From IMG/VR virus record IMGVR_UViG_3300037071_002900, positions 1 through 31,175 of that record: a stretch of 31,175 nucleotides of DNA. One strand, given 5' to 3'. A program made the position numbers and the translations under genes. Of the stretch, positions 1 to 19,329 are shown piece after piece. The DNA is from a virus. Every line of letters begins with the position of its first letter. Positions within the stretch are counted from its first letter, which is position 1. The notes below the pieces were generated by a model. It worked only from the letters and a program-made list of their open reading frames with translations, searched no databases and was not told the DNA's origin.

Positions 1-380
1 AATGGCGCAAGGGCTTGCGTTAACACCTCTGAAGGGCTAATAACATGTGCCAACATATCAGCGTTGGCAAGCCCTGGCACAACGTCGGCGGAGGTGCTAA
101 AAAGTAGGTTTACATACTCTGCGTGTATAGCGTTTTGGTATTGTACGTGCGCCAGGTATGCAGTGTATTGGGCCTTTACTTGCGCAGGGCAATAAATGGC
201 GTATTTATTAGTGGTAAGGTGCACTTTGTTTAATGCGCAGAAGTGCGGTGTTTTGGTGCGCACAACGCCAACGTTTAGTTGGTATTGTGCGCCGATGCGT
301 GCGTTGCGTGTGCGTTTATACGCTCCGCATTGCGTTATAACATGCATGGTTTTTACCTTTCGTGGTACGTGCGTGTTGGT

Positions 381-467
381 ACTACTTATGCGTTTATAAG
401 TAGTTTTAAGCTCTGCGTTGGCGCACAGATCGGCGCAACGTCGGTGCGCAGAGCTTAAAACTACTTA
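381..467. repeat. Three-armed inverted repeat (8-bp and 21-bp perfect arms)
   Basis: Positions 397-417 and 447-467 are perfect reverse complements (21 bp, 29-base spacer). The outer 8 bases, ACTACTTA/TAAGTAGT, occur a third time at 381-388. TAAGTAGT at 397-404 can therefore pair either backward with 381-388 (8-base loop) or forward with 460-467. The two hairpins exclude each other, as in attenuators or switchable cruciforms. No gene follows on either strand, so a regulatory role is only inferred. Confidence 0.8.
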
Positions 468-638
468 CACACGCTCCGCCAGGGCTATAGTTTTATGTGC
501 AAGCCCTGGCGGTGTGTATAAATAGGCAAACCATATAGCGTATAAACACACCTATAAATTAAGCGTTGCGTTGTACCGTTTAGTACCCTCATATGTCTTA
601 CCATATACAACGCAAGCGTAAAAAGCCCTGCGTTGGCA

Positions 639-662
639 AAATGCGCCGACGTTGGCGCATTT
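639..662. repeat. Short inverted repeat, 9-bp arms
   Basis: AAATGCGCC (639-647) and GGCGCATTT (654-662) are perfect reverse complements around the 6-base centre GACGTT. The palindrome is made of the same TGCGCC/GGCGCA words that fill the tract. Confidence 0.6.
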
Positions 663-2071
663 AATGGCGGTGTTACACCTCCGCATAGTACCCTTATATA
701 CAAGGTATGTTACCGCACGCTAATTGCGCAGAGTGCGTATAGGGCTTTTGCTTACGTTGGCCCTGGCGCAATGTGCGGAGGTGCGCATTGCAGGGCTTGC
801 TTTGGCTGATATACGTTTACTGCATACAAGGTAAAAACGTGCTAAACAATTGCGGTGTTAGCGTTTACTGTACATATTGTTTGGTTTTAATGGCTTTGTT
901 TGGTTTGCCTTTTACACTTCAGCGTTGGCCCTGCGTTATAGCTTTTTACATATGCAGGGCTTGCGCCGATGTGCCGACGTGCACTTTTTAACGGTGCGTT
1001 GCGTTGGCCCTTACCACACCTCCGCACACGTCGGCGGAGCGTATAGGTGCGGTGTGCGTGTTACGTCGGCACACCGCCAGGGCCAAAAGGCAAAGTTTAT
1101 AAACTACTTCTAAACTTGTGCACTTTACTAAAATATAGGGCTGAAGTTTTACCTTCAGCGTTTATATGCTTTTGTTAACGTGCCAGTGTTTACCCTTTTG
1201 AGGTGCACACCTACGTGTGCGCACGTATGCGCATAAGCTAATAACCAAACATACCTACACGCAGAGCTTGTAATATCAGCCCTTTTGTGCTTTTGGTGTG
1301 CGTGCCAGTATGCGCCGACGTTTACCAACGTTGGCGCATAACACTATGCAGTTTTGGCGGAGCGTTGGCCCTGGCGCACATACTGCGTGCGGTGCGGTGC
1401 GTTGGCTCTGCCTACCTGCGTGTTACCTTAATGTACGTTACAACTACATACAAGCTAACATAGCAGAGCGTATATGCAAAACTATATAACGCAGTATGCG
1501 CCATTATACGCATGGTTAATGTAAGGGTGTTGCGGTGTGGCTTTTTATAGGGCTTTTGAGGTGTATATAGGTGTGGCGGTGTTGCAACGTCGGCGGTGTT
1601 ACGGCACACACACCAACGCAGAGTGTACGCAAAAGGTGCGCAAAAGGGCTTTTTATAGTACGCATGTGCTAAAAAAGGGCTTAAAACGTAGGGTAAACGT
1701 AGGGTTATAGTATAGCAGTAGTATACTAATTTGGCGGTGCGTGCCAAAAAATGTTAGTGTTAGGCTAACATTTTCGGGCCTTTTTTGGGGCTTTTTTGGC
1801 CCTGGCGGAGCGTGCACTAATGCGGTGTTACGGCACACACCACACACCGCCGACGTTGGCCCTGCAAGCCCTTCAGCGTGCGCCAGGGCTTGCGTTAACA
1901 CGGTGCAGAGGTGCAAGGTATTAAGGTGTTGCAAAAGGGCTGAAGTGCGTATGCCTTGCGTCGGCGCACACCTCCGCATAAGGTGTTGCAAGGTATTAAG
2001 GTATAGGTATGTATATGTAGGGCTATAAAAAAGTAAAAAAAGGGGTATATACGTATAGCGTACAATTGCGG

Positions 2072-2127
2072 TGCACAATACCTTTGCCTTAAAAAAGGGC
2101 TTTTTACACCTATTAAGGTATTGTGCA
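2072..2127. repeat. Inverted repeat with 13-bp perfect arms and inner A/T hairpin
   Basis: TGCACAATACCTT (2072-2084) and AAGGTATTGTGCA (2115-2127) are perfect reverse complements with a 30-base spacer. The spacer itself contains an AAAAAGGGCTTTTT-like self-complementary segment, so a two-tier hairpin is possible. The arms carry GCACAA and TTGTGC, the half-sites of the palindromes at 3825-3842 and 19215-19232, but in the reverse arrangement. Confidence 0.65.
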
Positions 2128-2170
2128 TTTTTGGCTTTTTTTGGGCCTTTTTTATTAGGGTGTTGCAATG

Positions 2171-2244
2171 CCTTAATACCTTAATACCTTACGGCACATC
2201 GGCGCATATGTGCCGACGTAATACCTTAATACCTTAATACCTTA
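2171..2244. repeat. 8-bp tandem repeat (CCTTAATA) in two blocks around a palindrome
   Basis: The octamer CCTTAATA repeats about 2.6 times at 2171-2191 and the same unit about 3 times at 2219-2244. Between them, CGGCACAT (2192-2199) and ATGTGCCG (2208-2215) form a perfect 8-bp inverted repeat with an 8-base loop. The reverse-complement unit occurs upstream at 1990-2004, giving a possible 15-bp long-range pairing with 2222-2236. Confidence 0.75.
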
Positions 2245-2311
2245 TGGCGGTGTTGGCCCTTGCAAAACGTGTGCCGATGCGCAGATCGGCGCAACGTCGG
2301 CGCACCTCTGC

Positions 2312-2392
2312 GTTGGCCCTGGCGCATTTTTGCGTTGGTGTTGGCGCACCTCTGCGTTGGCGGAGCGTTGCGCCAGGGCCAACACCAACGCA
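2312..2392. repeat. Overlapping alternative inverted repeats (15-bp and 14-bp arms)
   Basis: GTTGGCCCTGGCGCA (2312-2326) is the exact reverse complement of 2369-2383. TGCGTTGGTGTTGG (2331-2344) is the exact reverse complement of 2379-2392. The right-hand arms overlap at 2379-2383, so the two stems compete. This again gives a choice between two mutually exclusive hairpins. Confidence 0.7.
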
Positions 2393-2534
2393 CGTTTAGC
2401 TATAGCTAACATCGGCGCAAAACGTGCACTTCAGCGTACCGCCAACGTCGGCGCATCGGCGCACCTCCGCATAAAATTTTGCTAAGTACTTGCGGCATTG
2501 CGAAAGATGTTGCCTCCGCCAGGTAGCGATCCAA

Positions 2535-2618
2535 TCAACTTCCGATACAACGACCATTTTTCCCGATTTTGAATCTTATCGTTAAGTACCTTCTTTTGAA
2601 AATTAAAATTTTTGCCAT
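2535..2618 (-). CDS. Possible 27-residue basic peptide (doubtful)
   Basis: A short frame begins MAKILIFKRRYL and ends at a TGA just inside the composition boundary. It lies directly downstream of the GIY-YIG gene. A GAGGA motif lies upstream but at poor spacing. The peptide is Lys/Arg-rich with no known motif. It may be chance; it is listed because no better explanation was found for 2481-2642, which otherwise holds only A/T-rich sequence. Confidence 0.15.
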   Translation of the reverse strand: MAKILIFKRRYLTIRFKIGKNGRCIGS

Positions 2619-2642
2619 TTTTTGCTCAAAAGTCCTCTTCGA

Positions 2643-3062
2643 TTACTCAAATTTCCTCAAAATACCGTCTAGAATCATCTTTTCAGCCTGGGTAAGCTCA
2701 TTTTCCTTAAATCGTCCTTTCCTGACAATAACTTCTATCCTCTCCAGGAAAGTTCCATCGTAAAATTCTCCCTTCCGATAAATTTCTGGAGCTGTCCTCT
2801 CCTGTCTTACTTCCTCGTTAATCTTATTCAGTAAATCGTGTCCTAACAGATACAGCGTCCTAATCAGTTCCTTCTCTGCTGCCGCTGCTTCTTCCCTATC
2901 ATATCCAAATACACGATACGTTTGATACAGAAGTCCGTTCTTCTCTACATCATATAGATGTGCTGTTCTTCTCTGCTCAGGATTCTGTGTGCATCCCACG
3001 TATCTTATCACTCTGTCTTCGTCTAATAATACATAAACTTCATAACGCCTACGCAACCCCAT
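2643..3062 (-). CDS. GIY-YIG family endonuclease, free-standing
   Basis: This 139-residue protein carries the core of the GIY-YIG nuclease fold in its first half. EVY (8-10) stands for GIY and YVG (21-23) for YIG. They are followed by Arg31/Arg32 and His35, a later acidic residue in AEKELI (Glu63 or Glu65), and Asn79 in LLNK, the usual order of catalytic residues. Such enzymes cut one or both DNA strands; phage copies are often homing endonucleases or repair-like nucleases. The start at 3062 is chosen because AAAGGGGG sits just upstream and the motif follows at once; an in-frame start at 3113 would add 17 unconvincing residues. No DNA-binding tail of the homing type is evident. It is the last solid gene before the word-built tract. 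Confidence 0.8.
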   Translation of the reverse strand: MGLRRRYEVYVLLDEDRVIRYVGCTQNPEQRRTAHLYDVEKNGLLYQTYRVFGYDREEAAAAEKELIRTLYLLGHDLLNKINEEVRQERTAPEIYRKGEFYDGTFLERIEVIVRKGRFKENELTQAEKMILDGILRKFE

Positions 3063-3136
3063 TTTTAGCCCCCTTTGCAAAATTATATAGCAAACTACCC
3101 GCACGCACCCCAACCGAAAAATTTACCGCACAGCAA

Positions 3137-3171
3137 GGGCGCACAAAGCCAAACTAAGGCATTGTGCGCCC
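3137..3171 (-). promoter_or_regulatory. Strong hairpin between zinc-module gene and GIY-YIG gene
   Basis: GGGCGCACAA (3137-3146) and TTGTGCGCCC (3162-3171) pair perfectly. After one A-A mismatch, GCC and GGC extend the stem around a 7-base loop (3151-3157). Read leftward it is not followed by a T run, so it is a poor intrinsic terminator. It contains the half-sites GCACAA and TTGTGC, so it may be an operator or an RNA processing/stability hairpin in the leader of the GIY-YIG gene. Confidence 0.55.
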
Positions 3172-3206
3172 ACCGCTAACCGCCCAAACTAACACCCCCT
3201 ATTTAA

Positions 3207-3770
3207 CTATCCTGTGTGCTGGCCGGAACCGCCGCACTCATCACAAACCACACCACCTTCCGTATCCCCATCCTTCCATCCTGTTCCTCCGCACTCACCA
3301 CAGACCTCAACATCCTCTCGTTTGGATGGTTGGCCGTGTCCGAAGGCCGCCTTCGCTCGTTCACGTCTCTTCATCTTCTCATCCTCTGACATCACTCTTT
3401 TCCTGCGAAATGATACTTGATTGGCTTCCACAAGATATTCCCTTCCAATCCCGTCATCACGCACTACCGCTGGCATCCCCATCCTTTCCAGCTTCGCAAT
3501 CATAACGGGGTCATCTGTATATATCTTCCACGTCCCACGATCATCTGCACTTTGCATGATGGCCGTTTCCCGTTCTTCCAATGTAAGATCTCTCATCTTA
3601 ACCTTCGTCATCTTTACTGTGCCTTTCCCCATCAACTCATCTCTCACCACTTCATCATGAGGAAGAGTACCATAATGATCAGGATCATAATAATATACTT
3701 CCCGCCCAATTCCCACAATATCCCTAGCCAGAATCCACGCCAGAATCCAGTTATGAAGTCTTTCGTCCAC
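3207..3770 (-). CDS. Protein with DnaJ-type CxxCxGxG zinc module, no J domain
   Basis: This 187-residue protein ends in two CxxCxGxG repeats, CGECGGTG and CDECGGSG, separated by about 13 residues. This is the zinc-binding pattern of DnaJ and of many small phage proteins. There is no J domain (no HPD motif). The middle is charged, with a basic stretch (FRRKR, KMKRRERAK) before the zinc module that could bind nucleic acid or a partner. The start is GTG at 3770, supported by GAGGAACG just upstream. The function is unknown. The gene sits alone between an operator-like palindrome (3824-3843) and a hairpin (3137-3171). Its coding strand is unusually purine-rich, like the small genes up to about 4470, and unlike the endolysin gene. 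Confidence 0.65.
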   Translation of the reverse strand: MDERLHNWILAWILARDIVGIGREVYYYDPDHYGTLPHDEVVRDELMGKGTVKMTKVKMRDLTLEERETAIMQSADDRGTWKIYTDDPVMIAKLERMGMPAVVRDDGIGREYLVEANQVSFRRKRVMSEDEKMKRRERAKAAFGHGQPSKREDVEVCGECGGTGWKDGDTEGGVVCDECGGSGQHTG

Positions 3771-3823
3771 CGTTCCTCATCCTCCCTCACGAAGATTTGT
3801 CCTCCCTGCCGTAAGAGGCGTCA

Positions 3824-3843
3824 TTTGTGCAAAATTGCACAAA
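3824..3843. promoter_or_regulatory. Palindrome TTGTGC-N6-GCACAA, operator candidate A
   Basis: TTTGTGCA and TGCACAAA are perfect 8-bp arms around AAAT, in the 90-base gap upstream of the zinc-module gene. The core TTGTGC-N6-GCACAA (3825-3842) is repeated with the same spacing at 19215-19232. No T run follows on the minus strand, so a terminator is less likely than a protein-binding site. Confidence 0.5.
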
Positions 3844-3860
3844 ATGGTTTCTGGTCATCC

Positions 3861-4088
3861 TCATCCACCTCGTCCCGACCCGCCCATCTTGATCTTCTTT
3901 TCCAGTATCATCTCCCGTAACTTCTCCACTAAGAAGTACATCTCCCGTCTCTCCAGTTCATACTCATCCCTCATCTCACAAGCCAGGGGAATCGCATCCA
4001 AATAGTAATCTCCTGGCATCTCTCTCCCAAATTTCCCTGATATGCGTTCATCGCTCCACAGTGGATCTAATCTTATCTTTTCGCTCAT
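3861..4088 (-). CDS. Small charged protein of unknown function
   Basis: The product is 75 residues, rich in Glu, Arg and Lys, with a predicted helical segment (ELERREMYFLVEKLREMILEKK) and a Gly-rich tail. No family is recognised. The ATG at 4088 lies two bases after the stop of the membrane-protein gene at 4090, which suggests coupled translation. It shares the purine-rich coding strand of its neighbours. Confidence 0.55.
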   Translation of the reverse strand: MSEKIRLDPLWSDERISGKFGREMPGDYYLDAIPLACEMRDEYELERREMYFLVEKLREMILEKKIKMGGSGRGG

Positions 4089-4089
4089 C

Positions 4090-4266
4090 TTAACTAAATG
4101 CTCCTATGATCCACATCACCACTACAATCATACACAATAACATCCCCATCCATACTATGCCTCTTATCCACCATACTACACCCCACACATCCCCCATCCA
4201 GTCAATCCACAATGATAGGAGGGCTGCCGTAAGAAACACTCCTATCACGAAGACTGCTCCCATCAT
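4090..4266 (-). CDS. 58-residue, two-helix membrane protein, candidate holin
   Basis: From the ATG at 4266 the product is almost all hydrophobic. It has one helix (AVFVIGVFLTAALLSLW), a short polar turn (IDWMGD), and a second Trp/Met/Val-rich helix ending in GAFS. GGAGAG sits six bases upstream of this ATG, which makes it better than the in-frame start at 4356. Small two-helix proteins near an endolysin are often holins, which form the membrane hole that releases the lysin. No polar charged tail typical of many holins is present, so the role is inferred from size, topology and place. It overlaps the next upstream gene by 65 bases in another frame. Confidence 0.5.
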   Translation of the reverse strand: MMGAVFVIGVFLTAALLSLWIDWMGDVWGVVWWIRGIVWMGMLLCMIVVVMWIIGAFS

Positions 4267-4471
4267 ATCTCTCTCCATTATCTGGTCCCAGATCGTAGTA
4301 TTCCCATCCATAAAATAAATCCTCCCAGATCGCAACTTCCTCCCTTTCCCACTCAATCCTCTTCCGCCAATAGATCTCCGTCATCAAACACAGAAACGCT
4401 ATGATGCTAAAGATTCCCATTCCTACCCAGAACTCGCCTGGGTAGGATTGCATTCTTCCTGCTGTGATCAT
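4202..4471 (-). CDS. Small single-pass membrane protein of unknown function
   Basis: The 89-residue product has one N-terminal membrane segment (about residues 14-36, FWVGMGIFSIIAFLCLM within it), then a basic patch (WRKRIEW) and an acidic, aromatic-rich soluble tail. This suggests an N-out/C-in or reverse anchor. A start at residue 7 (4453), with AGGA just before it, is also possible. It begins just after the stop of the gene at 4473 and ends inside the candidate holin gene. A lysis helper (antiholin or spanin-like) is one guess; no family is recognised. Confidence 0.5.
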   Translation of the reverse strand: MITAGRMQSYPGEFWVGMGIFSIIAFLCLMTEIYWRKRIEWEREEVAIWEDLFYGWEYYDLGPDNGERYDGSSLRDRSVSYGSPPIIVD

Positions 4472-4472
4472 A

Positions 4473-4745
4473 TCATCTATTTCCCACTTCCTTTAAAATC
4501 TCTATCATGCGCTTCGCTTCATCGCGATCACTTTCTTTCTCGCTTTCCGGTAGCTCGTAGTAGGATAGCTTCATCTGTCTCGTCCAACGTTCTACCGCCC
4601 AGGAAGGCATCGTGTATGTACCATCATCATTGAGCGTACCTTTTTGGAACATATACTTCATCCATCCAGACCACGCATCATGGGCATATTGCGCCAGAGC
4701 TTCCTGTAGCTCTATTTCCTGCATGGGTTCAAAGGGCTTCGTCAT
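4473..4745 (-). CDS. Conserved phage-type small protein (function unknown)
   Basis: The 90-residue product contains the run ALAQYAHDAWSGWMKYMF, then NDDGTYTMPSWAVERW and ELPESEKESDRDEA. I recall this pattern from many small hypothetical phage proteins of unknown role; that match is from memory, not a search. No catalytic motif is evident; it looks helical and soluble. Its ATG overlaps the endolysin stop by four bases (ATGA-type coupling), with AAAGGA upstream. This places it in the lysis operon. Confidence 0.65.
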   Translation of the reverse strand: MTKPFEPMQEIELQEALAQYAHDAWSGWMKYMFQKGTLNDDGTYTMPSWAVERWTRQMKLSYYELPESEKESDRDEAKRMIEILKEVGNR

Positions 4746-6634
4746 AGTTTCAAATTCCTTTCGGCAAAGAAGGTCTGTGGATCTATACGGCCCTTTCCCA
4801 TAGGCGTCACTGTAAGATATTCTCCTCCATGATTCATCAACCGCACTTCCAAATGTAGATGTACTCCGGTACTGTTTCCTGTAGTTCCTAACTTCCCCAA
4901 TTCTGCTCCTGGTTCTACTACCTGTCCGGCCACCACACTAATGGAATCTAAATGGGCGAAGAATGTGTAGCATCTCATCCATCCCTCTTGATGTCTCACC
5001 CGTACATAGTTCCCATAGGCTGCATCTACCCCTACGAAGGCTACCACACCTTTTGCGATGTTCAGTACGGGTGTTCGAGAGGGCTTGCCGCCGAAGTCTG
5101 TACCATTGTGACCTGGCATCCCAAATTGTGCGTAGTTAGCGGGATTCTGATAGAAGTGCTGTGTGATTACAGCACCCCGCAGCGGATGACATAGATCTTC
5201 GGGTACAGGTTCTACGATGGGTGGTCGCTCTGGGATTGTACGACTTTCTGTCCATTCCCACGTAATCCATGTTGAAGTATGCTCCTTAGGATTGCCGTCC
5301 TTTCCCATCCCAATCCCCGATACTTTATCGGAGGGGCCATCTAATACTCTAATCGAGTATTCATTCAAGGAAGCTCCCATAGGATAATCATAATTGTAGC
5401 TGGCAGAGGCTTCATCTGCTTTACTTGTGACCTGTGTGCTACCGGAAGGCCACATCACTTCTAACTTGACGCCAGGTACTTCTTCATGATTTCGCAGCAC
5501 TCGTCCTAGAATGTGATGATCTGGTCCTACGGTCGCTGCCGCTCGTTCCAACCATTGTGCGTTGGTGATTTTCCAATACCATATTCCGTTGGGTGGTGTG
5601 GCATATTCAAATCGTACGCCTCTCGCCAGCAACTTAGGATCTATTTCCCTATCTTCTGCGGGCGGCGGTGTGGGTGGGGATGGTGGGGTAGGGGTCGGTG
5701 TGGGTGGATCTGGGGGACGGGGGGTGGGGATATTTGTAGCGGGAACACGATGACCTGCTTGGACAGCTTCCTTAAAGTCAGCAATCACACCCTGCTTATG
5801 GGTGAACGACCATTGATCATCTTCGTTGCTACGGTACAGACATAGTGCATGAATCTTCTGTCTGTTGTTGTGATTCCAGTAGTCTATCTCATTGTAGGCT
5901 TCTTGCACCCATCCACTGTTTACATCTGCCCAGGGGATTACTTGATCAGTTTCCGTGATGTATACAGGTAGATGTTGATATTTCTGGGGAATTACCTTCA
6001 TGTAGTCTTGATAAGCCATGAAGTGATAGTAGTAATCATCGAAGGGCCAATCCATTTGCCCCATATCGGTGATGAGCTGTGGGCCTACACCGTGTGTATA
6101 GGTGTGGATGGTGATGGCATCGCATCTTTCAATAGCATCTAGCGTATCACTGAAGTATTGGATCCAATCCCCTCTATCATTGCCAGGATACTTGGTGGTA
6201 TCATCCCAGGGTGCGCTGCCAGCGATGGCTACTTGTATATCCCGATTAACATTGTGGATGCTTTGATAGCACAGATCAAAACACTTGGCGTACTGTGTGG
6301 GGATGATGGGTTGATTGTGAGGTTGTTCATTCTTGTGATTGGGTTCGTTGCCGATGATAGCTACGGTGATATTGGGTGTGGCCGCAACGAAGTTCGCACA
6401 TCGTCGGGCGAAGTCTTCATATTCATTGGGTTGCGGTATCGTACCTACGGGATGATAGCCATTGTTCAGGCGTGCTATCACCGAGAAGCCCAACTGCGTC
6501 CATTGTGTATAGTTCCCACCTGCGGTATCATTGGGATTAGAACCCAGGGCTTCAGTAGCCACCAACCATCCTGGTTTATTGAGCATGTGGACATGACCAT
6601 CTAAATCGTGTGTACCGTGTATGAATTGGGTCAT
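4742..6634 (-). CDS. Bifunctional endolysin: glycoside hydrolase plus M23 peptidase
   Basis: The 630-residue protein has three parts. Residues 1-300 resemble a TIM-barrel glycoside hydrolase, with GNEPN (95-99) as the likely acid/base site and YITETD (225-230) carrying the likely nucleophile Glu228. A Pro/Thr linker (about 303-325) leads to a middle region with a beta-rich look (about 340-470). Residues 479-630 are a lysostaphin-type M23 metallopeptidase with HNGTD (His509, Asp513), His561 and HLHLE (His592, His594). Together they could cut both glycan and peptide parts of the cell wall. No signal peptide is seen, so export through a holin or use as a virion enzyme is expected. AGAGGAG precedes the ATG. 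It could instead be a tail-associated lysin, but its place with small membrane proteins favours lysis. Confidence 0.85.
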   Translation of the reverse strand: MTQFIHGTHDLDGHVHMLNKPGWLVATEALGSNPNDTAGGNYTQWTQLGFSVIARLNNGYHPVGTIPQPNEYEDFARRCANFVAATPNITVAIIGNEPNHKNEQPHNQPIIPTQYAKCFDLCYQSIHNVNRDIQVAIAGSAPWDDTTKYPGNDRGDWIQYFSDTLDAIERCDAITIHTYTHGVGPQLITDMGQMDWPFDDYYYHFMAYQDYMKVIPQKYQHLPVYITETDQVIPWADVNSGWVQEAYNEIDYWNHNNRQKIHALCLYRSNEDDQWSFTHKQGVIADFKEAVQAGHRVPATNIPTPRPPDPPTPTPTPPSPPTPPPAEDREIDPKLLARGVRFEYATPPNGIWYWKITNAQWLERAAATVGPDHHILGRVLRNHEEVPGVKLEVMWPSGSTQVTSKADEASASYNYDYPMGASLNEYSIRVLDGPSDKVSGIGMGKDGNPKEHTSTWITWEWTESRTIPERPPIVEPVPEDLCHPLRGAVITQHFYQNPANYAQFGMPGHNGTDFGGKPSRTPVLNIAKGVVAFVGVDAAYGNYVRVRHQEGWMRCYTFFAHLDSISVVAGQVVEPGAELGKLGTTGNSTGVHLHLEVRLMNHGGEYLTVTPMGKGRIDPQTFFAERNLKL

Positions 6635-6831: not shown

Positions 6832-9477
6832 TTACTCTGCTTCGCCTCTATCCAATGGGATGGTATATCCTGATTCTTTATCACTCTGGCTGCTAGTTCC
6901 TCGTTGTTCGGTTCCACTACCATAGTTTACCATCTCCTGTGAGAATCTAAACTTCTTAGGTGCATTGTTGGTTGCCGCTATCACTTCCATACCGAAGTTC
7001 CTAATCAGGTTGGGTTCTAAGGCTTGGATGTGTTTACTTAAACTCTGACCACTTTCCCATATCCACGTGTGATGTAGACGTACAGCAATTTGTTGGAAGA
7101 TTCCGTTGAGTTCTGCTGCCGTATGCCACTTGGCACTTTCCACCCCACCTGGCCCTCTACCTAATTTATCTCCCAATTCTCTATCTTCACGTAACCATAA
7201 ATCCAATACGGCAACCATTGGGCTAGATTCATGTAATAGTAGCTTTTGACGATTGGTCATCATTTCTAAGCCCTTTATCAGAAGGTCACCGTTGATGATG
7301 CCTTCGCTGCCGTTGGGCATTCCTCGTATACGGTTACAGAATACAGTGAAGTCGGCTAGTCGGCTTTCGGTAGGAGCAGGGGCGGTTGTGACTTCTCTGA
7401 GTTGGCGTACTGTGGTGTTGAGCATACCCATGATGCCCATCCATATACCATCGATGTTGTGGAGGATCTTATTCTGCATGGAGTATTCTGGCGTGGGTTT
7501 TTGGATCGCAGCAAGTTCGATTGGTAGTAATCTGGTGAATAAACTTTCCTCTGCAAAAGGTAGGGATGTAGCTGTTAGGATAACAAAACAATCAGGTAGT
7601 ATTCTCTGAATTTCGTTGGTGGTGTGCAACTTCCTTAACTCAATGTGGGTTCCTGTACTAATCCTGTTAAGCAGGTCTACTAACCAATAGCTCTTGTTCT
7701 TTTCTAAGTTATCTAGCACAATGAACTTATGTGCGCCCATCGATGCTCTTAGACTATCTGGCTTATCTGCCACTACCCCGTTCACGTTACTATGTGGGCC
7801 TTCCAGCACATATAGAAATCTACGTGCTGCGGTAGTCTTACCCGCACCTGGATCAGCTATAATGGTGAGTAGAGGACGGGTGGGCATAATATCGGGAAAG
7901 AAGGTGCTAAGGAACCATGCCTTCATTAGTTCCTTTTGCTGTCCTGGGGAAACACCTGTAGCTCCGATACCGAAGTTAAGATCATTGATTAAATAGCTCC
8001 AGGGATTTAGAGGTCTTGTCCCTTTTTCTTTCGCCTGGTCTAGATCTATATGTAAGCTACTATCTCGGTTACGAAAGATAATATCTTCCTCACCATTAAG
8101 ATGCTTATTACCCCATACATCCTTATAATCAGTTTCCCCAGTTAGCACATAGTTATAGGCTGTCCCCAGATTAAGGTACAGCTTATCTCCTGACCAATAG
8201 CTACGATTATACGCTTTAATCTTAAAGGCACTTTCCCTTGCGCTGTGATACACACCCCTTGCTGTACTGGTTCCGAAGGAATCGGCTGTGTTCAAGCCAA
8301 AGGTATTGTAGAGGATGCTATCCCAATAGCTATCTTCCATGCTATGTAGGTGATGACTAGTTTTATCTAGCCAGAATAGCTTTTCGGTAGCTATATCTAT
8401 GACTACTCTACCCTTTTCCTTTAGGAAGGAAAGTACGGTGTTGGCCGCACTTCTGCTCTTTAGATAAGTTGGGCCTTTGGATAAGCGTATCCTATCTATA
8501 AGCGTCATGATGGGTGTGACGTTCTGTTTGGCGATTGCATCGGCTAAACGACGGATAACACTTCCTGGCAATCTATCGGTTAGTGCCTGGATTCCTAGGA
8601 TTTGCTGGCCGTCCCTGTACTTATCATAGGTATCATGCACGCATTGCAGTTGGTTGCTAAGATCCCCTCCAGCTACACCTTGAAGAAGTTCTACAACTTC
8701 TACGGCATCTTCCTCTTCCCATCCAGATGTCGCTAACCAGCCGGATAGGAATAATGAAAGGTCATGCCGCTGGCCTTCCAGCCAGTAGCCAGATAATGTC
8801 TGCACAATAACTTCTTTGGGGTTCTCGTGGTCCGAAAGAACGCTGGCAAGTTGTTCTAGCGTAGCTGTCTTGTCCAGAGCTAGGAGGGGATCTACTTCAT
8901 CTCCTTCTTCCCAACCCCCGAAGGGAGTGATGAACTTACTGCGTACCTTAGTTACTGGATGCAAGCCTAACGGTACTTTAACCAGATTCCCCAGGGTATT
9001 GCTTTCTGTGAGTCTATCTTGCTTAGGGAACACCTCAATATGTGGATCTCCTGTGATCTTGCCACCTATCTGCTCTCGCACTTCGTTAGCTAAGGCACGC
9101 ACGTTCTCCGCAGGAACAGGTTTTGCGAAGAACACCCAAACATGATAGCCCTTGCTGCCGCTAAATTCTATAGTGTGAGGAACTTCTTGTAGGAAGTTAC
9201 TGAGCTTCAGCGTAAGATCTTTTGCAGCTTGCAGATCACTACCATCTACATCAAAACACATCCATAAGATAGTGTTGTCTGGCCGGAGTGTGTATGCACC
9301 GATGGTATGTTCCCCTGTAAGGTGTTTTTCCACCAATCTTGCATTGGGCGGTTGGATCACAGGGTTATAGATTGTTTCTTCTTTGCCGCTGCTGTTGGTG
9401 CGTTTACTTCCTATGGCATAGTGATGATTGCCTGTGAAAAACCTTTTAAGGATTAGGTCAGCCAAACTCGGCATCAT
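6832..9477 (-). CDS. AEP-type primase fused to AAA/SF3-like helicase
   Basis: The 881-residue protein joins two replication activities. The N-terminal part matches the archaeo-eukaryotic primase fold of the type seen in TOTE conflict systems and some phages: FDVDG with metal-binding Asp76 and Asp78, FSGSKGYHVW (105-114, His112), an EVFPKQ strand and GNLVKVPLG. The C-terminal part is a P-loop ATPase with Walker A ADPGAGKTT (541-549) and Walker B FIVLDNLE (585-592), followed by an ILTAT sensor-like strand. It is expected to open the duplex and lay down primers at the fork. The ATG (doubled, 9477 or 9474) overlaps the polymerase stop and follows GAGGTGG. The neighbouring polymerase would extend its primers. 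Confidence 0.85.
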   Translation of the reverse strand: MMPSLADLILKRFFTGNHHYAIGSKRTNSSGKEETIYNPVIQPPNARLVEKHLTGEHTIGAYTLRPDNTILWMCFDVDGSDLQAAKDLTLKLSNFLQEVPHTIEFSGSKGYHVWVFFAKPVPAENVRALANEVREQIGGKITGDPHIEVFPKQDRLTESNTLGNLVKVPLGLHPVTKVRSKFITPFGGWEEGDEVDPLLALDKTATLEQLASVLSDHENPKEVIVQTLSGYWLEGQRHDLSLFLSGWLATSGWEEEDAVEVVELLQGVAGGDLSNQLQCVHDTYDKYRDGQQILGIQALTDRLPGSVIRRLADAIAKQNVTPIMTLIDRIRLSKGPTYLKSRSAANTVLSFLKEKGRVVIDIATEKLFWLDKTSHHLHSMEDSYWDSILYNTFGLNTADSFGTSTARGVYHSARESAFKIKAYNRSYWSGDKLYLNLGTAYNYVLTGETDYKDVWGNKHLNGEEDIIFRNRDSSLHIDLDQAKEKGTRPLNPWSYLINDLNFGIGATGVSPGQQKELMKAWFLSTFFPDIMPTRPLLTIIADPGAGKTTAARRFLYVLEGPHSNVNGVVADKPDSLRASMGAHKFIVLDNLEKNKSYWLVDLLNRISTGTHIELRKLHTTNEIQRILPDCFVILTATSLPFAEESLFTRLLPIELAAIQKPTPEYSMQNKILHNIDGIWMGIMGMLNTTVRQLREVTTAPAPTESRLADFTVFCNRIRGMPNGSEGIINGDLLIKGLEMMTNRQKLLLHESSPMVAVLDLWLREDRELGDKLGRGPGGVESAKWHTAAELNGIFQQIAVRLHHTWIWESGQSLSKHIQALEPNLIRNFGMEVIAATNNAPKKFRFSQEMVNYGSGTEQRGTSSQSDKESGYTIPLDRGEAE

Positions 9478-11504
9478 GCCACCTCAAGGATTCGGCTTTG
9501 CTTCTCGGTATTATATGCCTTCCAATCTATGCTTGCAACGTCAATTTCGATGGGGAGCTTCTGCAACGTACCATAGCTATCTCCTACTTTGGCTTCTGCA
9601 TGGAAAGGTAGGTTAAAGATATCTTCAACTTCCATTACACGTAGTAGAACGGGTACGGCAATATCTAAACAATCCTCACGTATTTCAAATATAGCTTCAT
9701 CGTGGATAATGCTGAGTACGCCACCCCAATCTTGAAAGGTAACAATCTTATCGGCACGTACAATGGCGAGTGACATAATTCCTGCTGCGCCCCCTTGAAT
9801 CTGTGCGTTTGCGCCTTTGTAGACCTTCATAGGGTCATTTTCACGCCAGATACGGCCATCCCAATAACGGATGTAGCCTTGCCGTGTACCCTTTTTGATG
9901 ACCTCATTCAGCCAGGGCTGGATGCGTGGAAATGTGTTCCAGTATTGCTGTGCTATGTTCTGAGCTTCTTCGCTGGTCTTGTTGAGGCGGTACTGGAGGG
10001 AACCTGTGGTCATGCCGTAAATGAGGCCGAAGCCAATAGCTTTAGACCATTCACGATGGAGTTCGTTTAATTCATCACCGCAATCACCCCATACGCTGAG
10101 AGCTACTCGCATGTGAATATCCTCTCTGTTTTTGAGGGCTTCCATCATGACAGGTTCCTGTGCTAGAATGCCAAACATACGCATTTCTTGTTGTCGGTGA
10201 TCAATAGACACCAATTTATATCCAGGCTTTGCGATAATAGATTGGCGTAGGTTGTACTCACCTGTCCTCGTTCCCCCGCCGCTAAAGACGCCAGTATTTG
10301 CTCTAGCTCTGTGAGATGAGGGGATATTTTGGAGATTAGGTCGGCTGGCCGATAATCGCCCAGTTCTCGTTCCAGTGATATTGAAAGTTCCGTGCATAAT
10401 GTGATCATCATCAGCCAGCTCCTTGTAGTTGTCGAGGAAGTCTACTAGCTTGGCACATTCACGCATTTCCAACACCAGAGGGCCAAGTGGATGCGCTCCT
10501 TTTTCCATAAGAATAAATGAAGATGTACGGTATTTGTTGTATCTGTTGACGTGGGCCATGCGGGATCTATCCACACCATCAGACTCAGCAAAGGGATTCT
10601 CGGGCATGGGAATGCCCATATCTTGATATAGGGCTTTGGAGAGTTGTGCGCCGCTTTTCCAGTTGAATTCTTTGCCGCAAGCGTCAAATAGATCCCGTTC
10701 CAAGTGAGCTAGATGATCTTCCAGTAGTTTACGGGATTCTTTCATGTAGCGGTAATCTAGCAACATACCCCGCCGTTCCATTTTCTGCAATACCCGTAGG
10801 AACTTCATCTGCAAGCTGAGAAGGCTCTTGAGCTTGAGCTTTTCCATCTGCGGCATCAATAACTCAAAAAGTTGATAGGTCACTACACAATCGTTGGAAC
10901 AGTAGGCGGCTAGGTTTTCTAGGGACCAGTTCCAGGGAAGTAATTTCCCTTCGCCTTTACCTAGCTCTACATAGCCCCGTTTGCTCTTGGTATCTAGGAA
11001 GTATTCTTCCGACTTCTCTAGGCTCTTTTTTAGGCGGCTATCGTACAGATGTACAAGTACGGTGGTATCCATAATGCTACACGGCAACTCATACAGCAGA
11101 AGATCAAGGAAGTGTGCGTCAAACTTTAGGTTGTGACCTATTAGGAGGGTATTGGGATCATTAGCCATGTATAGAACAGCAGCTTTGGCTTCCTCTACTA
11201 AATCTTCATCTGGTATAGCTGTGAGGCGGGTCTTTCGTGTAATTACATATTCATACACTTTGCTGCCGATGCTGCTCCTGCTGTAGTCGCGGCGTCCGAG
11301 CCACATCTTCTTCTTGGTGGGTGTGCCGTATGCTACCTGTCCGTAGGTGCATGTTGGAAGATAGCCCGATATGCCGAGTTCCTCACAATGTATGCCTACT
11401 CCGATGATGCTTTCACGCCACCAAGCTAATCCTGTCGTCTCTGTGTCGATGACGACTGTATGACCTCTACAGGAACGTATTTGTTCCAGCGTTAGGTATT
11501 GCAT
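9474..11504 (-). CDS. Family A DNA polymerase with 3'-5' proofreading domain
   Basis: The 676-residue enzyme copies the phage genome. The proofreading domain shows DTETTGL (20-26), GHNLKFDAHFLD and YCSNDCVVTYQL, the three Exo motifs. The polymerase domain shows TGTRTGRLSASRPNLQNIPS, motif A SIDHRQQEMRM, motif B REWSKAIGFGLIYG and motif C IIHDEAIFEI. There is no 5'-3' exonuclease domain, as is common for phage Pol I relatives. Motif A begins with Asp-His rather than the usual Asp-Tyr, a small deviation. AGGAGG sits seven bases before the ATG, one of the strongest ribosome sites of the block. The gene couples directly to the primase-helicase. Confidence 0.95.
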   Translation of the reverse strand: MQYLTLEQIRSCRGHTVVIDTETTGLAWWRESIIGVGIHCEELGISGYLPTCTYGQVAYGTPTKKKMWLGRRDYSRSSIGSKVYEYVITRKTRLTAIPDEDLVEEAKAAVLYMANDPNTLLIGHNLKFDAHFLDLLLYELPCSIMDTTVLVHLYDSRLKKSLEKSEEYFLDTKSKRGYVELGKGEGKLLPWNWSLENLAAYCSNDCVVTYQLFELLMPQMEKLKLKSLLSLQMKFLRVLQKMERRGMLLDYRYMKESRKLLEDHLAHLERDLFDACGKEFNWKSGAQLSKALYQDMGIPMPENPFAESDGVDRSRMAHVNRYNKYRTSSFILMEKGAHPLGPLVLEMRECAKLVDFLDNYKELADDDHIMHGTFNITGTRTGRLSASRPNLQNIPSSHRARANTGVFSGGGTRTGEYNLRQSIIAKPGYKLVSIDHRQQEMRMFGILAQEPVMMEALKNREDIHMRVALSVWGDCGDELNELHREWSKAIGFGLIYGMTTGSLQYRLNKTSEEAQNIAQQYWNTFPRIQPWLNEVIKKGTRQGYIRYWDGRIWRENDPMKVYKGANAQIQGGAAGIMSLAIVRADKIVTFQDWGGVLSIIHDEAIFEIREDCLDIAVPVLLRVMEVEDIFNLPFHAEAKVGDSYGTLQKLPIEIDVASIDWKAYNTEKQSRILEVA

Positions 11505-17482: not shown

Positions 17483-19185
17483 TTTAATATATCTTTTAGC
17501 ATTCCGGTGGTAAGATCTCGTATCATGGATACCCTGTAGTCTAGTAGGGAATTAACCAGATGGTCGATGGTAGGTTTTCCGTCTTGATACACTGAGCGTA
17601 AATGAACTACATTCGGGGATTGTGTTGTACCAATGCGACGGAATCTGTGAAGGCTTTGAAAATAATTAGAATTGTAATTACGTTCAGGGTAAAAGGCTGT
17701 CCTGGCCGCAGTTAAAGTATGCCCAAACGAGCCAGTTTCCATGTTGAGAATAAGGATCTTGGTTTCACCTTCTTGGAATTTACGTATCCAGTTGTTTCGT
17801 TCTTCTGTATCAGTAGCTCCGATAATCTTACCGATACGCTGGTCTACCTTGCGTGCTAGGAATTCTTCCAGATAGAAGGCAGTACGTGTGAAGCTCACCC
17901 ATACGAGCCACGGACCATCGTAGATTTCCATCAGTTCCGGCAAAGCATCCCACTTACCGCTTTCGTTTGTGCCGTCTAGTAGCATGGGGTTGCTGGCTAG
18001 TTGGATAAGGCGTACTACTTTGCTAAGATGGTTTTCTACTGTGACCTTAGTGCTGGCCGTGATGTTGCCATTTTCATCCTCTTGGTTTAAGGTAGTGACT
18101 AAATCCACAGCCATCTCATGATAAGCCTTTTGCTGCTTAGGCTTCATGGGTATATCTATCTCAGTGAATAACCATTCTGGGATATCTAACACTTCGCTCT
18201 GACTACGGGCAAAGTATATATCTTGAAAACGTTTTTTGATAACTTCCTCAGCGTTCATCTTGTTGGCTATTACTTGATTTCCCCAGGGTGTTGGGTTCAC
18301 CATACAGTATTCCTGACAAAAACGCCAATAGGAACTGTAGGCTTTTGGTTTGAGAATATTGAACTGGCTCCATATATCGTCTACCATACGATTAGCAGGT
18401 GCGCCTGTAAGTTCCCAAACCATTGGGATGCCTTTGGCTAATCTTGCTACACCTTTGGTGCGCTGTGATGTACGGCTTTTGTACAGGATGCTTTCATCCA
18501 GTATAAGCAGGTCAAACTTCTTGGTCAGTAGGGTAGGAACCATCTTAATGGCTGTTTCAGGGTTGGTGATAAACCAAGTGATACGGCCAGGAACCTTATC
18601 GTCTAAACCTTGTAGTGTAGCTTTCTTGCCGTGATAGATAATGATGTTATAATCATGTAGGCTAGAAGCCCACTTTTCTATTTCGCTTTTCCACATATAT
18701 AGTAAGGATAAAGGTGCTATGACTAGTACCTTTTCTACTTTGGGATATAGGATATTTGCTGCCGTAATGCTACAGATTGTTTTACCTAATCCTGGGGATA
18801 GGCTTAACATTGCACGAGGACGTTCAGTTAGGAAACCAACGGCTTCTTGCTGAAATGGGAAAAGTGGGAGATTACGTATGGGAGGTATGGGATGAACTTC
18901 ACTGGCGTCACGACGCCATCGTCCAACAGTGGGTGCAAGGAGCAACGGCCCCAACGTATCACGCAGCCAATGTAGAGCTTCCAGTGAAGTAGTGGCACGA
19001 TAGCACAATCCTAAAGTATCATTATTGGCTATAAACCACATACTGCCTTCCAGCAGCTTCAACGATGGATTAATCTTTTTGGGGACGAAGAACAAAAAAT
19101 CCTGCGCTGTTTCAGGCAGGAACGTAATTCTTCCAACATCGGGTGCAATTTCTACGTCGGGTACGGGTTGCTTTTGTAGCGTCAT
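17479..19185 (-). CDS. SNF2-type superfamily 2 DNA helicase/translocase
   Basis: The 568-residue protein begins its ATPase core near residue 108 with FPFQQEAVGFL, then Walker A LSPGLGKT (129-136), Walker B LILDES, motif III ELTGAP, and motifs V-VI in LNMETGSFGHTL and SLHRFRRIG. This is the SNF2/DEAD-like order. Phage copies act in replication restart or recombination. It is the first gene of the leftward block; AAAGG lies before its ATG, just downstream of the predicted promoter and operator. Confidence 0.85.
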   Translation of the reverse strand: MTLQKQPVPDVEIAPDVGRITFLPETAQDFLFFVPKKINPSLKLLEGSMWFIANNDTLGLCYRATTSLEALHWLRDTLGPLLLAPTVGRWRRDASEVHPIPPIRNLPLFPFQQEAVGFLTERPRAMLSLSPGLGKTICSITAANILYPKVEKVLVIAPLSLLYMWKSEIEKWASSLHDYNIIIYHGKKATLQGLDDKVPGRITWFITNPETAIKMVPTLLTKKFDLLILDESILYKSRTSQRTKGVARLAKGIPMVWELTGAPANRMVDDIWSQFNILKPKAYSSYWRFCQEYCMVNPTPWGNQVIANKMNAEEVIKKRFQDIYFARSQSEVLDIPEWLFTEIDIPMKPKQQKAYHEMAVDLVTTLNQEDENGNITASTKVTVENHLSKVVRLIQLASNPMLLDGTNESGKWDALPELMEIYDGPWLVWVSFTRTAFYLEEFLARKVDQRIGKIIGATDTEERNNWIRKFQEGETKILILNMETGSFGHTLTAARTAFYPERNYNSNYFQSLHRFRRIGTTQSPNVVHLRSVYQDGKPTIDHLVNSLLDYRVSMIRDLTTGMLKDILK

Positions 19186-19214
19186 TTCTTGTGCCTTTCC
19201 TGGCGTTTATTTTA

Positions 19215-19232
19215 TTGTGCTTGGGCGCACAA
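19215..19232. promoter_or_regulatory. Palindrome TTGTGC-N6-GCACAA, operator candidate B
   Basis: TTGTGC (19215-19220) and GCACAA (19227-19232) frame a 6-base spacer TTGGGC. The site lies a few bases downstream of where the leftward promoter would start transcription, a classic place for a repressor. The same half-sites with the same spacing occur at 3825-3842. Confidence 0.5.
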
Positions 19233-19242
19233 CGTATTTAGT

Positions 19243-19271
19243 AGTATAACACAGTCGGCTGAGGGGCGCAA
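19243..19271 (-). promoter_or_regulatory. Predicted leftward promoter (extended -10)
   Basis: On the minus strand TTGCGC is followed by 17 bases and then TATACT, with TG one base before it (TGTTATACT). The -10 fits the sigma-70 consensus well and has the extended TGn element; the -35 matches only its first three bases. It would start transcription of the helicase and the replication block. Confidence 0.5.
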
Positions 19272-19283
19272 ATTGGCTGTACG

Positions 19284-19329
19284 CCACAATATACGGTTAT
19301 TGCTGCTTTACAACTCGCTTATATTGTGG
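19284..19329. promoter_or_regulatory. 10-bp inverted repeat in the divergent control region
   Basis: CCACAATATA (19284-19293) and TATATTGTGG (19320-19329) are perfect reverse complements with 26 bases between. The pair flanks the likely promoter zone for the terminase side, where TATATT at 19320 could serve as a -10, though no good -35 is seen at 17 bases. Two binding sites of one regulator that loops or covers the promoter is a plausible reading. Confidence 0.45.

Follow-up and report, generated by a model that had tools for sequence, protein, structure and literature searches.

A bounded zone with GA/TC steps at or near zero beside a conserved border in a clade of uncultured soil-type phages

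In a family of uncultured soil-type phages, the double-stranded DNA step GA/TC is missing or almost missing from a bounded zone beside a conserved border, whether the sequence there is coding or not. The window (the whole stretch analysed, a 31,175-base record of an uncultured virus) contains one part of this zone. A dinucleotide at zero over nearly 5 kb, coding sequence included, in several related phages is the footprint of very strong selection. There is close to an even chance that a DNA-reading agent new to science, with a two-base core GA/TC and context exceptions, makes these steps nearly lethal in the zone, the phages responding with a GA-free dialect and with proteins lacking Asp and Glu. 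Identifying the agent would bring to light either a novel type of defence or a principle of phage replication not described so far. Searches in part of the literature returned no report of a zone like this, and we know of no system that punishes GA/TC in one genome zone.

The zone in the window

The zone and its border are given below by coordinates of the window.

1-2470, no strand assigned: GA/TC-depleted dialect zone, left non-coding part; rho 0.21, word reuse, complexity ratio 0.55; homologous zones in five relatives; runs past the end of the record.
1915-2243, no strand assigned: cluster of AAGGTA/TACCTT words, possible protein-binding iterons; common to all zones near the border.
2483-2555, minus strand: conserved left border element, ATCGG...GGATCG ... 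GCAATGCCGCAAGTACYTA; the same element lies beside the zone in G001, G002, G005 and G007 and partly in G006.

The preliminary description had called GA/TC several-fold rarer in 1-2480 than in an even mix and abundant nearby. The effect is stronger than was stated: symmetrised GA/TC rho is 0.21 in 1-2480 versus 1.05 in 2481-31175, and GA+TC counts per 500 bp are 10-16 inside the tract versus 44-90 in the remainder of the window. The edge of the zone lies at about 2470-2490, at the conserved border element. The surviving TC steps are followed by G at +2 in 58 of 64 cases and by C at +3 in 53 of 64 (counted from C); the context GCNGA/TCNGC holds 54 of the 65 residual GA/TC. The same description had called the tract free of genes. 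This stands for the visible fragment, which has only chance-type ORFs, but the window cuts the zone, the other half of which is coding in relatives. The tract gave no match to tRNA or Rfam families, nor by blastn to plasmids and phages; a GC-rich word pattern scanned in genome and viral contigs gave chance matches only.

The early genes of the window phage (minus strand) include those for a SNF2-type helicase, an HNH endonuclease, a Sak4-like protein, ThyX, PolA, an AEP primase, an M23 peptidase and a zinc-ribbon-like protein; the late genes (plus strand) include terminase and capsid genes (Pfam, PHROGs). The following features are referred to below.

2643-3113, minus strand: GIY-YIG-type endonuclease gene; Pfam GIY-YIG, E 1.8e-4, slightly below the gathering score.
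3114-3206, no strand assigned: GA/TC-poor spacer; 1 GA/TC in 93 bp; counterparts in L258 (about 18541-18720) and L257.
3207-3770, minus strand: left-flank early gene with a zinc-ribbon-like C-terminus; phrog_1709, PHROG E 3.4e-10; coding strand GA-rich.
6832-9477, minus strand: archaeo-eukaryotic-type primase; AEP-TOTE E 4e-29; PHROG DNA primase.
9474-11504, minus strand: family A DNA polymerase (PolA); DNA_pol_A E 3.9e-68; query for finding relatives.
19186-19325, no strand assigned: divergent early/late promoter region, a weaker GA/TC-poor spot; 5 GA/TC in 140 bp.

The GIY-YIG gene appears to be inserted, with the GA-poor spacer on one side and the zone border on the other; in G001 and G002, the spacer directly abuts the border region. 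The divergent promoter region is also poor in GA/TC in G004, G002 and G005 (observed/expected 4/18, 6/22 and 8/26, i.e. about 0.2-0.3).

The zone in related phages

Relatives were retrieved via terminase and PolA. The zone (2-5 kb) occupies the same place in them, between the conserved left border and the second early operon. It is spanned entirely by single contigs in G001 (IMGVR_UViG_3300011443_000026) and G005 (3300025941_000058); G002, G004 and G006 hold parts of it. GA/TC is absent from 4670 bp in G005 (583.7 expected) and from 4740 bp in G006 (591.4 expected). Three copies are found in 4592 bp of G001 and one in 2150 bp of G004; for G002, the count (one) concerns a stretch of 510 bp only. 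Of the fetched loci, about 240 of them unrelated, only those of this clade have 800-bp windows in which GA/TC falls below 0.2 of expectation. A simple composition test could find similar zones in other genomes.

Several contigs break within the zone, and the contigs have no common terminus there. Misassembly is rejected: in G001 and G005 one contig each runs across the entire zone and into phage genes at either end, and the zone recurs in several independent samples.

From left to right, the conserved border (ATCGGRGATGGGTCGGATCG ... AATGCCGCAAGTACYTA) comes first; a half without coding sequence, in which AAGGTA/TACCTT words cluster, leads on to at most three conserved genes, and beyond a repeat-rich right edge lies the second early operon. 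The AAGGTA/TACCTT words lie within 800 bp of the border for 10 of 15 sites in the window zone and 31 of 42 over all zones. Their clustering near the border is suggestive; the word was chosen after the fact and is not significant as the best of all 7-mers. A search with the border pattern returned the known relatives and three unrelated contigs. At the right edge, where GA/TC returns, repeated operator-like words are found (L271 5400-5500, L275 2150-2320, L276 10860-10990): ACAAATCTCG in two phages and CCAGATCAGA in another.

Word reuse and dialects

The reuse of short words on both strands, noted previously from the window, is confirmed against control sequences. Words of 8-14 nt recur far above Markov controls of orders 1-3: on either strand of the tract, 172 12-mers recur versus 2.2, 3.0 and 12.3, and 76 14-mers versus 0.2, 0.4 and 2.0. 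The reuse exceeds order-4 controls too. Inverted repeats do arise from the same words, as had been proposed; the longest exact repeat of the tract is 21 nt, and direct and inverted repeats are nearly equal in number (24/25). Per zone, the longest exact repeat is 21-33 nt, and spacing is near uniform with a modest local excess below 50 bp. Copy-choice expansion, one of the origins suggested earlier, is a side process at most, the repeats being short and mostly scattered. A tandem, satellite or CRISPR-type array was rejected: there are no periodic or long units, only two short TRF arrays lie inside the zone and no exact repeat exceeds 33 nt. A structured RNA, also suggested earlier, is not supported: Rfam gave no match and most of the zone has no sequence conservation across phages.

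The zones of different phages are not alignable; what they have in common is limited to gene A (see below) and a few short stretches, whereas the flanks align over kilobases. G001 and G002 have PolA proteins that are 96% identical, yet the overlapping parts of their zones give no blastn match. Each zone has its own dialect, uniform within the zone, while the other genes of these phages share one k-mer profile. Tetranucleotide cosines are 0.49-0.82 between zones of the clade, 0.92-0.95 between halves of one zone and 0.95-0.98 between coding samples.

The dialects differ also in restriction-site words. Outside the zones, 6-bp palindromes are strongly avoided, and mostly CGCG too (4/81 in the window); this avoidance resembles that of type II restriction sites. 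Inside some zones, the same words are common: CGCG 21 in the G004 zone versus 2/62 in the rest; TGCGCA 29, 10 and 9 in three zones versus 1 across all the rest (G005: 29 versus 0/7); GTGCAC 7 in the window zone versus 0 in all the rest (window 0/6). The additional banned tetramers and palindromes of the zones differ per phage: CCCGGG (0/18) and GCCGGC (0/16.5) in G001; CTGCAG (0/10) and GTGCAC (0/10.7) in G005.

Flanks of the zone

The two sides of the zone differ. On the right, synonymous-corrected GA+TC within 1.5 kb is 0.62-0.68 in three phages and 0.89 in G005, and returns to about 1.0 beyond 3 kb. On the coding strand of this flank, TC is at 0.58 and GA at 0.86 of synonymous expectation. 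Genes of the left flank show no avoidance of GA/TC at synonymous sites; GA on their coding strand is about 1.3-fold (1.32) above synonymous expectation (window 2600-5500, G001, G002, G005, G006 and G007).

Codon use in the near right flank is as follows (near flank given first): Val GTC, 0.02 versus 0.19; Val GTA, 0.57 versus 0.32, GTT being unchanged; Ile ATA, 0.33 versus 0.12. Third-position T preceding codons that start with C falls to 12.7% versus 36.4% (p=7.5e-11); T elsewhere is unchanged. Kinship of the four phages inflates these counts, the direction being identical in each. Since NTC is replaced by NTA rather than NTT, and T falls only before C, the pattern indicates avoidance and not C-to-T mutation. 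Avoidance of GA/TC sites, one of several causes listed in the preliminary description, was thus the right direction: it is seen at synonymous sites and codon boundaries.

Genes of the zone

Four phages carry gene A, with 49-62% identity to the first sequence; gene B, which is less conserved, likewise occurs in four and gene C in two. None of their proteins contains Asp or Glu, because the zone genes, too, are nearly or wholly free of GA; the zone yields natural proteins wholly without acidic residues. The three genes had no credible match in Pfam or PHROGs, gene A had none among named phages, and low-confidence structure models of the products of genes A and C gave no credible fold match. Codons follow the local dialect (Ala: GCC 25/32 in G001, GCA 29/45 in G005), unlike those of terminase and PolA, which are alike between G001 and G005. 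G001 and G004 both retain a lone GA within identical words, ACCAAGAAAGGT; the G004 copy lies just upstream of the start codon of gene A, as the ribosome-binding site.

Origin of the zone

The zone itself, the ban with its boundary and gradient, the signature of avoidance and the differences in dialect are regarded as shown; the agent, its timing and what the zone proteins do are inferred. The preferred reading, held tentatively, is that the zone was shaped by an early host attack that reads DNA at GA/TC. Two features led to this choice: to keep a step out altogether, selection has to be strong at each single site, and the zone is sharp on one side and graded on the other. The zone would be the part of the genome exposed to the attack before the phage shuts it down. 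The attack would be nuclease-like, with a recognition core GA/TC plus context; a single GA/TC in the zone would be nearly lethal, and DNA exposed later, including the remaining early genes, would be safe. The small proteins of the zone would be candidate early protective factors, and differing reading rules of hosts would give phage-specific dialects and fast turnover. This is supported by the complete absence of GA/TC in the G005 and G006 zones and its near absence in G001, G002 and G004, by a ban that makes no distinction between strands or between coding and other DNA and leaves conserved proteins free of Asp and Glu, by the synonymous-site avoidance that weakens with distance on the right, and by dialects that vary from phage to phage while staying uniform inside each zone. 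A gradual right side and an abrupt left one would fit an early-entry (leading) region. The GA kept in ACCAAGAAAGGT as the G004 ribosome-binding site is as expected of a trade-off, and the GCNGA exception in the window suggests a reader that behaves like an enzyme. Several points count against an early attack: to our knowledge, no enzyme reading GA/TC in this way is known; some zones are rich in type II palindromes avoided elsewhere, the reverse of expectation for the DNA most exposed to classical restriction; word reuse beyond order-4 controls is not accounted for by banning a few short words; the left-flank GA excess is not accounted for; the contigs have no common end in the zone, which would have to enter or be exposed first.

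Known early-entering regions are devoid of particular restriction sites or carry anti-restriction genes. The likeness is that one end of a mobile element is specially exposed early, the order of entry being, for the zone, a supposition; the difference is that no dinucleotide-free vocabulary is known from them. They carry early protective genes, e.g. the T7 gene 0.3 (Ocr) region and the leading regions of conjugative plasmids (PMC12707154, PMC11602122). The zone proteins differ from Ocr, a DNA mimic, in lacking acidic residues altogether.

From the AAGGTA/TACCTT clusters near the conserved border, the zone is possibly an origin. In a less likely, rather doubtful alternative to the early attack, replication would start at the border and the phage primase would prime at TC-containing sites of the template; the zone would remain unprimed on both strands and stay single-stranded or leading-strand-only. 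Genes for an AEP-type primase and for PolA are present in the phage itself, the ban is one-sided and the iteron-like clusters lie near the border. Known primases recognise sites of two or three bases, e.g. GTC for T7. With the border as origin, TC of the lagging template would be depleted on the right and enriched on the left (TC 0.58 and GA 0.86; left GA 1.32). The two-base size and the strand asymmetry of the flanks would both be accounted for. However, the ban is equal on both strands inside the zone, selection per site from one extra primer seems weak, phage-specific dialects are left over and much of the flank asymmetry follows from GA in fixed Asp/Glu codons. Likeness to iteron origins and sequence-specific primases concerns the conserved border, the repeated words and the very short sites read; we know of no origin within a region of 4-5 kb from which both strands have lost a dinucleotide. 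Neither this replication start nor the early attack accounts for all of the word reuse.

DNA modification by the 7-deazaguanine/DpdA system has a two-base GA motif. The zone resembles it in this recognition, but the rest of the phage genome is full of GA; no genes for GA-motif modification were found among the proteins scanned, which were part of the gene set (Pfam, PHROGs).

It is improbable that CRISPR targeting focused on the zone, GA/TC being the core of a PAM-like targeting motif. The dinucleotide size of the avoided motif, its strand symmetry and indifference to coding, the rapid turnover and the differences per phage speak for it, but GA/TC steps outside the zone, in their thousands, would still be targets, and word reuse is left over.

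Classical avoidance of many restriction sites is quite improbable and, for shared type II enzymes, largely refuted. Like the zone, restriction-site avoidance in phages and plasmids removes short, host-dependent words symmetrically on both strands, and the banned tetramers and palindromes do differ per phage (CCCGGG and GCCGGC in G001; CTGCAG and GTGCAC in G005). The zone, however, bans a two-base step in one bounded place. Ordinary type II avoidance is opposed by CGCG, TGCGCA and GTGCAC, which are rare outside and frequent in some zones, GA/TC being distributed in the opposite way; nor would lists of sites demand the loss of every GA.

A local mutator that turns TC to TT is very doubtful. Deaminases such as DddA and APOBEC3 classically act on TC, and a zone purged by such a deaminase or by an error-prone polymerase would be stable. 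The flank codons change from NTC to NTA and not to NTT, and the footprint of a TC deaminase was not found; most zones show no excess of TT/AA over TA, there is no drop in GC content and no deaminase was found among the proteins scanned.

It is extremely improbable that the zone is an artefact, a piece of host DNA or a commonplace stretch of low complexity or repeats: several contigs break in the zone, but two span it, several independent samples show it, its genes are homologous and its border conserved, and no such window occurs in the about 240 unrelated loci.

Other vocabulary-poor regions

The loci L371 and L378 were rejected as zones, their low complexity coming from repeat proteins. In L371 (19700-21150), from an unrelated phage, a long Ala/Glu-type coiled-coil repeat gene, which is ordinary, gives the low k-mer complexity. 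A milder zone of poor vocabulary occurs in G009 and G010, which are deeper relatives (PolA 44-46%); it lies close to where the early operon ends, has no GA ban and encodes a MoxR-like AAA ATPase, a CobT-like VWA protein or both. Vocabulary-poor zones of deeper relatives, with MoxR-AAA/CobT-like VWA genes, lie at 9250-15400 in L377 and 1-2450 in L375; the latter has a patch of GATCCCTTGATCCC repeats at the side of the early operon.
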